Virus record (IMG/VR): IMGVR_UViG_3300037587_000108
Location: 1-20,342 of that record
Direction: 5' to 3' (one strand)
Length of the DNA: 20,342 nucleotides
Source: a virus
Part shown: piece by piece, positions 1,186-10,719 of the stretch
How the letters are laid out: each line of letters opens with the position of its first letter
How positions within the stretch are numbered: position 1 is the first letter of the stretch
The notes under the pieces: generated by a model
The model's input: only the letters and a program-made list of their open reading frames with translations
Databases searched by the model: none
What the model was told of the DNA's origin: nothing
Translations under genes and position numbers: made by a program

Positions 1186-2444
1186 TAGTTGACCCTTCCT
1201 GTAGCGCTGGAAACAAGAATATTAACTGTGGAAGTTTCATTTGTTGCGAAGTATTCCACGAAAGTGGCTGTAGCGAATATCTCTTGCCAAGGAATAGTTA
1301 TTGATGCGGGGTTGCCAGCAGATGAATTGGCTGTACGTTTTGAATTAGGGACTACTGATCCATCGATGGCTACCTCTATGGAGATATTAACAGCGCCACC
1401 CGAAACTGGCTCTACTGTAAATGATCCAGTGATCGGTAACGTGGCATCCTTACCGCCATCATAGGTAAGCCTGCCTGCTGTAGTCCCTGTCATCTGGCTG
1501 GATCTCTCAACAACCCAAGTACCGGCCACAAGGACAGGAGTACCTGCCACAGCTATTACCGTCGCTGTTGCATTAGCCTGCATTGATAACAACCCATCAG
1601 GACGAGTATCGGCAATGTCATCGTTATGGAAGAAGTTCCACAACGCATCATCTACGGTGACACCGGACAATATAGTTCCTGCTCCTGACGTTAACATCCT
1701 TGTGACAATGGCTGTGCCGCCTGTGTTTATATTTGCAGATGATGCAGCGCCAGTTATGAGAGTTGTGCCCGCTCCTAAATTCGCTAGAATTAGGTCTAAA
1801 ACAATTGCATCAAATGTGGCAGTCCCGAAGTTAAACAGGCTACCCCCTGTCAAATTGGTGGCTGAAACTTCCCATAGCCAAGTATTCCAATTTCCTGTAA
1901 TTGTGCAGCCACTTGATGTTATAGATGCCGGGCTCACATTGGTAAACCGAACTGTCGAACCGCTTGCCCCTCCGCTATTAAATAATCCGAAAGTCGAGCA
2001 AGAAACAGTACAGTCGGCCATTCTAAACAATGTATCAGTGTTGTCTGAAAAGTTAATTACTCGGCCTGATGCGCATGAGATCGTAAGATCGCTAATTCTC
2101 GCAGTATCGTTCAGAATAGTGAACATATCTGCTGTGCCAGTATATGTAAGAGTTACAGCAACAGACTCTATTCCTGATACAGCGCAACCATCTCCCATCA
2201 CTAGCTCATTGGTACCAAGACTAATATCATCACCGATTAGATATTCTGTATCATCAGCAAGTGTGATAACACCAGAAACAGGCGTAGGAAAGTCAGCTAA
2301 AACGTTCACCACGACTCTCTGAGTAGGGCCAGTGAGGCCAAACAATTCAGTGTCATTAGCGTTCACTTTAATAAAAGCATCACGCCATGTATCACCTGTG
2401 CCATCGTTAGCGGCTGCACCTACATTGATTAATTGCTGGGCCAT
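1185..2444 (-). CDS. Beta-rich tail fibre/spike candidate
   Basis: A 419-residue protein. Residues 1-35 carry the motif INVGAAANDGTGD followed by AFIKVNANDTELF, an N-terminal module found in many phage tail, baseplate and fibre proteins. Residues 45-270 show short repeating beta strands rich in Thr, Ser, Gly and Asn (ISDLTISCASG, FRMADCTVSCS, then later rungs), suggesting a right-handed beta-helix. The C-terminal ~130 residues look like a beta-sandwich. No enzymatic residues can be named. It follows the gp10-like adaptor and an 87-residue protein, a usual site for a receptor-binding or tail-tip protein. ATG follows a GAGG site inside the end of the upstream gene, whose stop is one base away. 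Fibre versus spike is not settled. Confidence 0.7.
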   Translation of the reverse strand: MAQQLINVGAAANDGTGDTWRDAFIKVNANDTELFGLTGPTQRVVVNVLADFPTPVSGVITLADDTEYLIGDDISLGTNELVMGDGCAVSGIESVAVTLTYTGTADMFTILNDTARISDLTISCASGRVINFSDNTDTLFRMADCTVSCSTFGLFNSGGASGSTVRFTNVSPASITSSGCTITGNWNTWLWEVSATNLTGGSLFNFGTATFDAIVLDLILANLGAGTTLITGAASSANINTGGTAIVTRMLTSGAGTILSGVTVDDALWNFFHNDDIADTRPDGLLSMQANATATVIAVAGTPVLVAGTWVVERSSQMTGTTAGRLTYDGGKDATLPITGSFTVEPVSGGAVNISIEVAIDGSVVPNSKRTANSSAGNPASITIPWQEIFATATFVEYFATNETSTVNILVSSATGRVN

Positions 2445-6551: not shown

Positions 6552-7475
6552 TTACACGCCAGCTGTACCGTAAGCGCCGCGTGGATCGCTCCAGCCATAG
6601 CTTTCGCGATAGTCAGCCTTGAAACGAGCATTGGAAGTACCAAAGTCGTTGTCTTGCTCGAAACGAACCTCTTGACGAAGCTTATGCCCCATGCCGTCAG
6701 GCGCATTGGTCTTGATAAACCAGGCAGTATCAGAGGTCAGATAGTTATTAACCATGTGACCAGCAGGCAGCATTCCGGTGGACCGGAGTGCGTTCACTGC
6801 GTTATTGCCTGTGTCATTTTGAAGTACCGAATTAAGCACTCGTTCGGCTTCAAATCCCAACTTAGGCGGAACGATCAGCCGCTCACCACGAAGGGCGATA
6901 CGCAGACCTCGGGGGTCGGTAGCCTCGTTGATGACGATCAGCAGATCCTCAAGCGCAGTCTCACTAAACGCAGCCGCAACTGCCAGCTCGTTAGCAAAGG
7001 TTGTGCTATCAGATGGACCATTGACGTGAAGCGAACTAAACAGCTCGGCACCATCGCCGCCAGTCATCAGGAACGCAGAGTTAAAGCCACGGTTATAAAC
7101 GTTGGCCGCAACAACTTCACGGGTTTGAGCCATTGAGAAAGCCAACGCCCGAGCCCGACGAGTAAACAGGTTATAAAGATTGTCCTCCATCGCTTCCCGC
7201 GTGACGATAAAGCCTTTGGCATACGTCAGGTTGGGAAATTTAGGAGAGAAACCTTCCTGTTGTGAATCATAAGCGACGCCTGCGCCTTCCGTCTTAACAG
7301 GGGCTAGACCGAAACCTTCGAACTGTTGATCTTGCTCGAATGCTTTACTTGATTGCTCAGTATCGAACAACATGGTGCGCTGAATTTGATGCTCTTCATA
7401 CGCTTGCCCGAATACATTTGCAACGCCTTCGACTAAAAGGCGCGAGATATTACCAGTTGTGATTACACCAGCCAT
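6552..7475 (-). CDS. Major capsid protein, HK97 fold, Mu gpT-like type
   Basis: A 307-residue protein of the size of Mu gpT-type major head subunits (about 305). The N-terminal region forms a helix (VEGVANVFGQAYEEHQIQRT). Residues 52-76 carry FEGFGLAPVKTEG followed by VAYDSQQEG, and then come YAKGFIVTREAMEDNLY and the long helix LFTRRARALAFSMAQTREVV, as in this family. The central part (TDPRGLRIALRGERLIVPP) and the Tyr/Trp-rich end (DYRESYGWSDPRGAYG) also fit. It forms the icosahedral shell on the scaffold. AAGGAG lies before the ATG. The gene is directly downstream of the cement gene. No protease domain is fused, and no head protease gene was seen in the window. Confidence 0.88.
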   Translation of the reverse strand: MAGVITTGNISRLLVEGVANVFGQAYEEHQIQRTMLFDTEQSSKAFEQDQQFEGFGLAPVKTEGAGVAYDSQQEGFSPKFPNLTYAKGFIVTREAMEDNLYNLFTRRARALAFSMAQTREVVAANVYNRGFNSAFLMTGGDGAELFSSLHVNGPSDSTTFANELAVAAAFSETALEDLLIVINEATDPRGLRIALRGERLIVPPKLGFEAERVLNSVLQNDTGNNAVNALRSTGMLPAGHMVNNYLTSDTAWFIKTNAPDGMGHKLRQEVRFEQDNDFGTSNARFKADYRESYGWSDPRGAYGTAGV

Positions 7476-7485
7476 GATCTGCTCC

Positions 7486-8055
7486 TTATACGCCTACAGC
7501 GCCGTTGATGGTGGATTCGTTGATACGCACAATCAGAGTGGTACCTGCGGCGGCAGGGAAAGTAATATCCCCTGAGTCTTTAACACCAACAACCCGAACC
7601 TGCTCAGTAGTAGAAGCAGCATTACCGGTAGTGTTTACGACCATGTTTGAATTAACCAGACCACCGGTAGCAGTTGCAGCAGTGACAGTTACAGGAAGGT
7701 TACCGCCCACGTCAGTCAGTGCGAAAGTGCCGCCAAGGGTTTCAGCTTCATAAAGAGTGGCTGGGTCAACATTGACCTTAACGAAACCGGCAGTTGATGC
7801 AGGTAGTCCGCGTTGTTCTAGGTCAGAAATGTTTGTATCGATCGAGATAATGGAGCCGGTAATCAGATTACCAGTACCAGCAGTGATCGCATCGACTTCA
7901 GAGATACCTGTTGTAGCGTCTAGGTTACCTGTCTCAACGACATAATCACCTACTGACAACAGAGTTGCGTGCGCCGCGTCAACCGCGAACGTTTGGACCT
8001 TACCAGTGTAACTCCCACCGGACTGGTCCTGAATAGGCCTGAATCCACCAGCCAT
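7486..8055 (-). CDS. Probable head cement / decoration protein
   Basis: I place the start at ATG 8055, giving 189 residues beginning MAGGFRPIQDQSGGSYTGKV. GAGG lies 9 bases before it, while the longer reading from 8103 would add a hydrophobic leader lying over a hairpin and a T-rich run. The product is small, beta-rich and rich in Thr/Val/Gly, with no Cys, and is encoded directly upstream of the capsid gene. Small beta-barrel cement proteins commonly occupy this place. The repeated Thr/Ala/Gly strands (VTVTAATATGG, VVNTTGNAAS) fit such a fold. A cement role is inferred from order, size and composition, not from a diagnostic motif. Confidence 0.7.
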   Translation of the reverse strand: MAGGFRPIQDQSGGSYTGKVQTFAVDAAHATLLSVGDYVVETGNLDATTGISEVDAITAGTGNLITGSIISIDTNISDLEQRGLPASTAGFVKVNVDPATLYEAETLGGTFALTDVGGNLPVTVTAATATGGLVNSNMVVNTTGNAASTTEQVRVVGVKDSGDITFPAAAGTTLIVRINESTINGAVGV

Positions 8056-8080: not shown

Positions 8081-8101
8081 AAAAATAAGCCCACAATGGG
8101 C
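8081..8101 (-). terminator. Terminator-like hairpin before cement and capsid genes
   Basis: The minus strand reads GCCCA-UUG-UGGGC (8101-8089) followed by UUAUUUUU (8088-8081), the layout of a small intrinsic terminator. The stem has only 5 bp. It ends 26 bases before the cement start with no room for a full promoter after it. It may be a leaky terminator or attenuator that tunes capsid transcription, or simply part of a structured leader. Confidence 0.45.
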
Positions 8102-8111
8102 AAACGTTTAA

Positions 8112-8147
8112 CTAATCAATCGGGACATCTATCCTGGTATTGATTAG
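8112..8147 (-). repeat. 9-bp perfect inverted repeat
   Basis: CTAATCAAT at 8112-8120 is the exact reverse complement of ATTGATTAG at 8139-8147, with an 18-base spacer that can add a 3-bp inner pairing (8123-8125 with 8132-8134). It could be an RNA hairpin in the capsid leader or a dyad operator. Placement in a transcribed leader favours RNA. Confidence 0.6.
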
Positions 8148-8235
8148 GGGCTGAGTGCATCTACATCTCAACCACTAAATATGCTGTTTGTTGAAGGCTT
8201 CGTCTCCGGCCACCTAGCAAGCCTCGTCCGGTCTT

Positions 8236-8272
8236 CGACTTAAGCACACTTATCTGAAATGCACTTAAGTCG
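8236..8272 (-). repeat. Long hairpin downstream of the ribozyme
   Basis: Minus-strand RNA pairs CGACUUAAG (8272-8264) with CUUAAGUCG (8244-8236), 9 perfect pairs. The pairing continues inward as UGCAUUU with AAGUGUG, including three G-U pairs, to make a 16-pair stem closed by a 5-base loop (CAGAU). It lies 38 bases downstream of the stem I 3' strand, so after cleavage it would sit near the new 5' end of the capsid mRNA and could protect it. Confidence 0.65.
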
Positions 8273-8310
8273 GTGGCTTGCTTTTGTCCTATTCACAACC
8301 TTCTAATAGG

Positions 8311-8361
8311 CCTAAGAGACACCTTTCGGCGTTTCGTCCCTGCGGACTCATCAGTCTTAGG
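8311..8361 (-). ncRNA. Type I hammerhead self-cleaving ribozyme
   Basis: The minus strand carries the complete hammerhead core. Stem I is CCUAAGA (8361-8355) with UCUUAGG (8317-8311), 7 perfect pairs. Then come CUGAUGA (8354-8348), stem II GUCC/GGAC (8347-8344 with 8339-8336) with loop GCAG, GAA (8335-8333), and stem III ACGCC/GGUGU (8332-8328 with 8323-8319) with GNRA loop GAAA. C at 8318 is the cleavage base in a classic GUC triplet. The predicted cut is between 8318 and 8317. Stems II and III are closed and stem I is open, which makes it type I. The catalytic G8 and G12 positions are present. It is co-oriented with the late genes and would split the late transcript between scaffold-side and capsid-side genes. 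Confidence 0.93.
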
Positions 8362-8458
8362 AGTAGCGGGAAGAGATAGCGATTCTCTATTTAATACAGC
8401 TCGTCCTGTACCCGCATGTGCGTATTCTATATCAGAAAACGATATAAAACACTATTCC

Positions 8459-8872
8459 TTAAATGATGTCGCGCTCCACAACGCTCTTCTGCCCTAACGG
8501 TACGTATTCCGAGTCGCCCAAAGCTTGAATATTCCCCTGAGTCGCATCGATGTTCCGCGCCTGCTGTGCATCCATATCCTCATCATAATACTTTTGCTCG
8601 ATACGCATCAGAACGTGCATATTACCTTTCCCGGCAGGTTGCTCGACTTTCTCACCGTCATGCCATACGAATTCCCACCAAGCTCGTTCCATCTGCCCTA
8701 ATTTGCCTGGGTGATCCGGCCCTGTAATAGCCCAATAGTATTTATATCCTTCCACTTTCAATGAATCAGGTACAGACAGTTTATTACCTGATCCCATTGG
8801 CACGCGATTGGGTCGGGCTGAGTTGCGTTCGCCATCACGGTTAGGCGTACGTGGCTTTGGTCCTGGCTTCAT
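8459..8872 (-). CDS. Conserved phage protein between scaffold and capsid genes
   Basis: A 137-residue protein. The basic N-terminus (MKPGPKPRTPNRDGERNSAR) is followed by a conserved-looking core, VPDSLKVEGYKYYWAITG, then QMERAWWEFVWHD and VLMRIEQKYYDEDMDAQQ. The aromatic, charged core and the lack of membrane or signal segments suggest a cytoplasmic or virion protein. It resembles uncharacterised proteins found with scaffold and capsid genes in podoviruses. ATG follows GAGG and overlaps the stop of the scaffold gene by one base. It is the last gene before the ribozyme gap, so its mRNA would lie at the 3' end of the cleaved upstream fragment. Confidence 0.7.
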   Translation of the reverse strand: MKPGPKPRTPNRDGERNSARPNRVPMGSGNKLSVPDSLKVEGYKYYWAITGPDHPGKLGQMERAWWEFVWHDGEKVEQPAGKGNMHVLMRIEQKYYDEDMDAQQARNIDATQGNIQALGDSEYVPLGQKSVVERDII

Positions 8873-10101: not shown

Positions 10102-10337
10102 TGCGGATGTTTGGAAAAGTAGAGATTAATCGCGCCTTGTAGTGCGATCATTAACTGCTCATCTGTCTTGCAAGAATGTCGCGCCCGAATCTGCAGCCCT
10201 TCTTCGCACTCAGCCAGAGAGATACCGACAAAGACATTTGCCCCTGTTGATTCATAGTCAACCTTGCACTCGGAAAGGATGCCATCGATATCAGTAGAGC
10301 ATTCTGCAAAACTGATATCATCAATCAGGCTTTCCAT
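10086..10337 (-). CDS. Small acidic phage protein, 83 residues
   Basis: Acidic protein beginning MESLIDDISFAECSTDIDGI, with four Cys at about 13, 24, 44 and 56, too widely spaced for an obvious metal site. The C-terminal helix has EQLMIALQGAINLYFSK and the end is QEDDT. Its start lies inside the GroES-like gene's end, where GGAGGATAAC serves as both coding sequence and Shine-Dalgarno. Function unknown. Confidence 0.6.
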   Translation of the reverse strand: MESLIDDISFAECSTDIDGILSECKVDYESTGANVFVGISLAECEEGLQIRARHSCKTDEQLMIALQGAINLYFSKHPQEDDT

Positions 10338-10719
10338 TGTTATCCTCCAACTGCTGCTGCAGCATGGTTAGAAAATCTCCGTTAGCTAGCCCCATAATGT
10401 CCTGGTCGCTCACGTATCGGTAATTTTCAAACTGTTTGTTGTACTCATGCGCCCGAGTAAACTTGCCATCGTATCGGGTTGATAGCTCGACCAGATCGCC
10501 CTCTTTAACGCCCCAATCTTTAGGAGACTCACAACCGGCATAGCCCTTATACGCTGTAGGGCCAAACGCAATGATGCGGGCAATATCACGCCCTTTACGC
10601 TCACGCTCTACCTCTGCCTCAGATGAAGCAAGAATAATTCCCCCGCTTGATTGGATCTGTACTGGGATTATTTCTACCAGCACGTTATAGCCGAGTGGCA
10701 ATACAGGTGGGTTATTCAT
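10321..10719 (-). CDS. GroES-like co-chaperonin (Cpn10 family)
   Basis: A 132-residue protein (host GroES is about 97). Residues 7-31 (LPLGYNVLVEIIPVQIQSSG then GIILA) match the GroES N-terminal strand and mobile loop. GGIIL corresponds to the GroEL-binding GGIVL motif. VIAFGP-like (IIAFGPTAYKG, 49-59), VKEGDLVELSTRYDGK (71-86) and YVSDQDIMGLA (102-112) follow in family order. An insert of about 15 residues (SPKDWG region) and a C-terminal Gln-rich extension lengthen it. Phage co-chaperonins such as T4 gp31 replace GroES to fold capsid proteins, so helping fold the capsid protein in this window is a reasonable inference. AAGGGG lies before its ATG. Confidence 0.85.
   Translation of the reverse strand: MNNPPVLPLGYNVLVEIIPVQIQSSGGIILASSEAEVERERKGRDIARIIAFGPTAYKGYAGCESPKDWGVKEGDLVELSTRYDGKFTRAHEYNKQFENYRYVSDQDIMGLANGDFLTMLQQQLEDNNGKPD

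Follow-up and report, generated by a model that had tools for sequence, protein, structure and literature searches.

The stretch of DNA analysed here (the window) comprises the 20,342 nucleotides (nt) of the IMG/VR virus record IMGVR_UViG_3300037587_000108, positions 1 to 20,342. On its minus strand a type I hammerhead ribozyme (8311-8361) is followed directly by a conserved RNA of about 120 nt with two pseudoknots (8193-8310), and the two together form a composite RNA of about 170 nt. On balance, the pseudoknot RNA is probably the functional product and the hammerhead its 5' trimming device, because RNA and hammerhead remain joined even though the gene partners of the composite RNA vary. The original prediction, made by looking at this one genome only, had assigned the hammerhead to the processing of the capsid message.

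Read from 8361 to 8311 on the minus strand, the hammerhead is CCUAAGA-CUGAUGA-GUCC-GCAG-GGAC-GAA-ACGCC-GAAA-GGUGU-C-UCUUAGG, with an open stem I of 7 base pairs (bp), a closed stem II of 4 bp, and a closed stem III of 5 bp that carries a GAAA loop. All catalytic elements were found (CUGAUGA, GAA, A15.1-U16.1, and the GUC triplet of the NUH type). C17 is position 8318, and the geometry places the predicted cleavage between 8318 and 8317. The original prediction had named this core on this strand, with the same cleavage position and a 7-bp stem I, and each element was read where it had been placed. The span then given to the element is correct for the hammerhead, but the conserved RNA goes on to 8193. 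The gap around it was likewise as long as described, about 400 nt from the ATG at 8055 to the stop at 8459. The proposed search with the Rfam covariance model returned an RF00163 match at the locus (8312-8360, minus strand), although its 25.0 bits lie under the curated cut-off of 34 bits, which is a database convention; the scores of nine further type I hammerheads from phages, each with a complete core, are likewise below it (27.6-33.9 bits). The E value is 0.033 for the whole window, 6.7e-4 when 411 nt are searched, and 7.7e-6 in a single-family search, and no other Rfam match with E up to 1 was obtained in the window. The minimum free energy structure of the isolated 51-mer is the hammerhead (-18.1 kcal/mol, z -3.1). 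The core pattern matches once in the window, with 0.00 matches expected from 100 shuffles. Across the seven members described below, 100% of the alignment cells in stems I-III are paired, and two-sided changes occur in 8 of 14 pairs. The hammerhead is real and its type I core is complete; self-cleavage at 8318/8317 is predicted from this intact core.

The RNA downstream of the hammerhead (8193-8310) scores 113.9 bits with R1, a covariance model of this downstream part alone which counts the window among its five building sequences. It consists in order of P4 (CCYAUU/AAURGG), ACAA, P5 (GCNNGC/GCNNGY), a long P6 hairpin, AAGAC, and the 3' block GAUACGAAGC; the blocks ACAA, AAGAC, and GAUACGAAGC look unpaired and are near-invariant. 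The P4 hairpin (8288-8310) pairs CCUAUU (8310-8305) with AAUAGG (8293-8288) and shows C-G to U-A exchanges. Its loop holds the 5' strand of pseudoknot a (GAAGGU, 8303-8298), whose 3' strand is GCCUUC at 8193-8198. P5 (8217-8281) is formed by GCAAGC (8281-8276) and GCUUGC (8222-8217) around P6 (8272-8236), both seen in the seven-member alignment. Pseudoknot b (8206-8231) joins the stretch after AAGA with the stretch before GAUACG, in the window CCGG (8231-8228) with CCGG (8209-8206).

Both pseudoknots are preserved by exchanges of their partner strands. Pseudoknot a is GAAGG:CCUUC in the window, GAGAGG:CCUCUC in L219, GUAGAGC:GCUCUAC in L220, GACCGG:CCGGUC in L211, CCGGCGC:GCGCCGG in L212, and GCUGGG:CCCAGC in L249, with 5 of 7 pairs changing on both sides. 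Pseudoknot b occurs among the members as CCGG:CCGG, CCAG:CUGG, CCGAU:GUCGG, CUGC:GCAG, and CCGAC:GUCGG, and 3 of its 5 pairs change on both sides. Over the core as a whole, 95.5% of cells pair in the seven-sequence alignment (A6), with two-sided changes in 23 of 42 pairs, a result reached by 0 of 500 shuffles; slid controls gave 30-42% of cells paired. A plain MAFFT alignment of the first five members (before L249 and L293) agrees with A6, with 94.3% of cells paired and 18 pairs changing on both sides. The double-pseudoknot RNA is absent from Rfam 15: no covariance model of that release matches 8193-8310, and the L220 copy likewise gave the hammerhead and sub-threshold matches only. Readings of the RNA as tRNA-like or as analogous to the phi29 pRNA were dropped for lack of evidence, and a group I intron-like P3/P7 topology had neither core sequence nor an Rfam match in its favour. 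The P6 hairpin alone (UAAGUGCAUUU..AGUGUAUUUA) has a 40-nt match in Kuraviruses of E. coli (Escherichia phage ES17, L316 1502-1541; phiEco32, L322 644-683). There it lies between two terminators, without hammerhead or pseudoknots, and sister phages carry unrelated sequence in the same slot; longer versions of this gap did not match the model.

Seven members from at least six lineages are known, namely the window, L219, L220, L211, L212 (the same as L100), L249 (the same as L261), and L293. The first clue came from a comparison of flanks, in which L100/L212 was seen to resemble the window past stem I; among the type I hammerhead loci with the same core that were fetched, only L100 (on the L212 contig) convincingly matched the pseudoknot RNA. 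Members were gathered by stepwise pattern scans and then filtered by R1 score, and false pattern matches (e.g. L216-L218, L221-L229, and L235-L248) were rejected on this score. The seven score 71-135 bits. For the five members from which R1 was built a match is given by construction, whereas L249 (71 bits) and L293 (94 bits) were found independently of the building of R1. A blastn search of GenBank phages (50,697) and plasmids gave no full-length match to the composite RNA. When 84,980 prokaryote genomes were scanned for a pattern that would miss copies like L249 and L293, 7 stretches were returned, of which 0 were members.

The two parts of the composite RNA are joined at a fixed spacing. The hammerhead is complete in 7/7 members and P4 begins exactly 7 nt past its cleavage site in each, so that zero or one nucleotide separates P4 from stem I (6-7 bp). 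Four scans that contained no hammerhead term recovered L211, L212/L100, L219, L220, L249/L261, and L293, and every one of these bears a hammerhead, which is obligate within the seven-member set. In L293 the hammerhead has a rewritten stem II (GAGUU/AACUC), a lengthened stem III, and UA as its cleavage site, which argues that it has been kept by selection; such changes are not expected of a dead motif inherited from a common ancestor.

The genes beside the composite RNA differ across lineages, and no gene partner is common to the members. In the window and in L219 the RNA lies in the leader of a capsid operon. In L211, which encodes P22-like portal and coat proteins, a terminator about 27 nt downstream of the RNA is followed by a tail-protein-like gene. 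In L212 the RNA, with a strong terminator directly upstream, precedes the genes of the small and then the large terminase subunit, and in L293 it lies between the genes of a single-stranded DNA-binding protein and a family A DNA polymerase. The L249 copy follows a queuine tRNA-ribosyltransferase (Tgt) gene and precedes an integrase gene on the opposite strand, then terminase. In L220 all flanking genes are on the opposite strand, with terminators before and after the RNA. Two of these neighbourhoods have further features. The small-subunit gene of L212 (5410-6108, plus strand) fuses a terminase small-subunit domain (Terminase_2) to a LEM-3-like GIY-YIG nuclease domain. Directly after the RNA in L249, and adjoining its Tgt gene, a tRNA-like sequence (1448-1525, plus strand) has a complete-looking T arm and acceptor stem and an 8-nt anticodon loop; it was not called by ARAGORN.

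The hammerhead, the composite RNA, its pseudoknots, and the lack of a fixed gene partner were all established by comparison of these sequences, and the mechanism that we favour follows from them as a proposal. During transcription the hammerhead would cut itself off at 8318/8317, and the pseudoknot RNA so released would start at a defined 5'-OH end that precedes P4 by 7 nt. This product would be a self-contained structured RNA, portable among many transcription units. Copies in L220 and L211 end near an intrinsic terminator, as would be expected of a small RNA. In the window and L219 the RNA lies in the leader of the capsid message, which the 5'-OH end and the pseudoknot may also protect. What we infer from the sequences is that cleavage takes place in the cell, that the product acts as an RNA of its own, and that the phage benefits. 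Several points weigh against trimming as the purpose of the hammerhead. Only seven members, from uncultured phages, are known, and the A6 alignment was fitted to the model. The RNA of the window, L219, L293, and L212 stands upstream of a co-oriented gene, which fits a role in cis as well, and for most copies no independent promoter was recognized with confidence.

The main rival explanation, which we regard as possible but rather doubtful, is a cis-acting mRNA module in which cleavage of the transcript by the hammerhead creates a 5'-OH end that the pseudoknot caps, and the gene that follows (in the window, the capsid operon) is thereby stabilized or regulated. It would account for the co-oriented leader position before capsid genes (window and L219), terminase subunit genes (L212), and DNA polymerase (L293), and by inspection relatives without the RNA have other 5' hairpins at the same place of the leader. 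Operon RNA processing was also proposed for hammerheads flanking prophage genes (PMC3088659). However, L220 has no close co-oriented downstream gene, in L211 a terminator separates RNA and gene, and the downstream genes share no function. The same capsid operon is moreover present without the RNA in L001. Its major capsid protein (MCP) is 98% identical to that of the window and its DNA is 89% identical over 8179-6500, but about 62 unrelated nt, with no ribozyme or RNA, replace positions 8180-8415 (about 236 nt). Trimming and the role as a cap in cis may both be true in the phage of the window.

The capsid operon bears on this in further ways. The hammerhead is co-oriented with it and lies in its 5' leader, as the original prediction had stated. 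The view that the ribozyme gives the capsid message its own 5' end fared less evenly: cleavage would indeed create a 5'-OH end, but a general purpose of this kind is not supported, given the varied neighbours, a promoter-like box upstream, and the MCP relatives. Among 80 fetched loci encoding such relatives the hammerhead was found in 0/80 and the pseudoknot RNA in 0/80; the closest of these relatives is L001. The association with capsid genes is not conserved: it recurs in L219, where the composite RNA stands at the same place, the gene order is the same, and the capsid protein is 84% identical over the 129 residues on its contig, and the other members lie beside unrelated genes. The capsid-processing reading would be at best local to this lineage, because the gene context is not conserved and L001 lacks the RNA. 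The promoter-like extended -10 box TGATATAGAAT (TGnTATAnAAT; 8424-8434, minus strand) precedes the hammerhead by about 65 nt; it is kept in L001, reads TGTTATATAAT in L219, and was not called by a consensus scan. The capsid message may already start at this box, rather than being cut from a long late transcript.

Other features of the leader were read by inspection of an alignment of the window, L219, L001, L002, and L003. Between the box and the hammerhead, a three-way-junction-like RNA (8366-8415, minus strand; GCGGG-UACAG..CUGUA-..AGAGA..UCUCU-CCCGC) has a nearly identical counterpart in L219 only, even though the two proteins from the genes immediately upstream share no more than 55-59% identity. 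Downstream of the pseudoknot RNA, the leader of the capsid genes (8089-8173, minus strand) has hairpins at 8173-8149 and 8147-8112 and a terminator-like hairpin GCCCAUUGUGGGC with a T-run (8101-8089). The pairing partners of these hairpins co-vary in L219 and are nearly unchanged in the ribozyme-free L001. The terminator-like hairpin stands shortly before the start codon and is a possible attenuator. The first gene after the leader (7486-8055, minus strand) begins with the ATG at 8055 and encodes 189 residues, with no function from Pfam or PHROGs. It is followed by the MCP gene (6552-7475, minus strand; phrog_371, E 4.4e-15), whose GenBank relatives include annotated capsid proteins; the nearest of them (< 50% identity) belong to phages that infect diverse proteobacteria and cyanobacteria. 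The head-gene cluster also contains a gene for a GroES-like co-chaperonin (10321-10719, minus strand).

The remaining explanations have less in their favour. A gated ribozyme, in which the hammerhead would be controlled, via a rigid stack of stem I on P4, by a double pseudoknot acting as sensor of a ligand or protein, is unlikely. It would be a natural allosteric ribozyme, and the spacing of P4 in 7/7 members, by which stem I abuts P4, would suit it, as would the compact pseudoknotted fold with its near-invariant blocks. Against this, there is no conserved downstream gene as regulatory target and no ligand is known, and pseudoknot RNAs serve many other uses. Slighter still is the chance of a selfish mobile RNA or DNA cassette that is merely tolerated and whose hammerhead limits the damage to host transcripts. 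Its patchy spread over unrelated phages, and its presence or absence between close relatives, would be as expected, but both pseudoknots show strong compensatory evolution, the copies share no mobility gene, and L001 shows replacement and not a clean insertion. A chance or decayed, inactive hammerhead, which the RF00163 score below the cut-off might suggest, is extremely improbable in view of the full core, the zero chance matches, and stems that covary in all members.

Type I hammerheads are common in phages, and the hammerhead of the window is by itself one more of them. At least 120 IMG/VR stretches match one pattern with the stem II of the window; among the matches listed, 109 hammerhead models including the window can be closed with the required stems, of which the weakest, whose stem III loops reach or exceed 50 nt, may have arisen by chance. 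A second hammerhead-led RNA was seen in L084 (49-300, plus strand), L101, L112, L146, and L190, all of which have, after stem I (CUGUCU/AGACAG), a hairpin with the conserved loop ACCUURUGGUGUA. GUGGU or AUGGU of this loop could pair with a distal ACCAC or ACCAU in most copies, and some copies adjoin tRNA genes. In L139 (1892-6179, plus strand) and L199, five hammerheads lie in series on one phage contig, which speaks clearly for the processing of a single transcript at several sites. An apparently complete type I hammerhead is also present, at a place without annotation, in the record of Xanthomonas phage RiverRider (MG983743, 17815-17840; L108, 12039, plus strand).

No description of the composite RNA was found in the open-licence literature, most subscription-journal papers lying outside this search, and priority is therefore not assured. 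With the type I family (RF00163) the hammerhead shares the core CUGAUGA..GAAA, A15.1-U16.1, the NUH site, the open stem I, and closed stems II and III; it differs in its 25 bits, under 34, and in the gapless fusion of its stem I with a double-pseudoknot RNA that is conserved. Perreault et al. 2011 (PMC3088659) described bacterial and prophage hammerheads, suggested the processing of long phage transcripts, and found that flanking genes are not constant. The phage intergenic location and the varying gene identities are alike, whereas the available part of that paper mentions no conserved partner RNA. The pseudoknot hammerheads (PMC11300833) also combine hammerhead and pseudoknot in one RNA, but, as far as the available part of the source tells, their pseudoknot belongs to the fold of the ribozyme itself. 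In the present RNA both pseudoknots are formed outside the hammerhead, within the 3' domain, one between the P4 loop and the 3' end and the other between the P6-P5 junction and a 3' strand. RAGATH RNAs (RAGATH-18/reRNA, PMC11061315) likewise come from neighbourhoods tied to hammerhead or twister ribozymes, but the present RNA has no Rfam match and no TnpB was found among the neighbouring proteins searched. Theta ribozymes of gut phages (hepatitis delta virus-like) trim the 3' ends of phage tRNAs (PMC10879173) and offer the parallel of a small phage ribozyme trimming a functional non-coding RNA; they are of another class, no tRNA was found in the window, and in the present case the trimming would be done by a hammerhead, at the 5' end of an uncatalogued RNA. 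Many phage hammerheads are known without a conserved partner, and the composite RNA offers a concrete candidate client at fixed spacing in 7/7 members. Its double-pseudoknot part is an addition beyond the families of Rfam 15, and if gating is true, unrelated phages would share a natural allosteric hammerhead.
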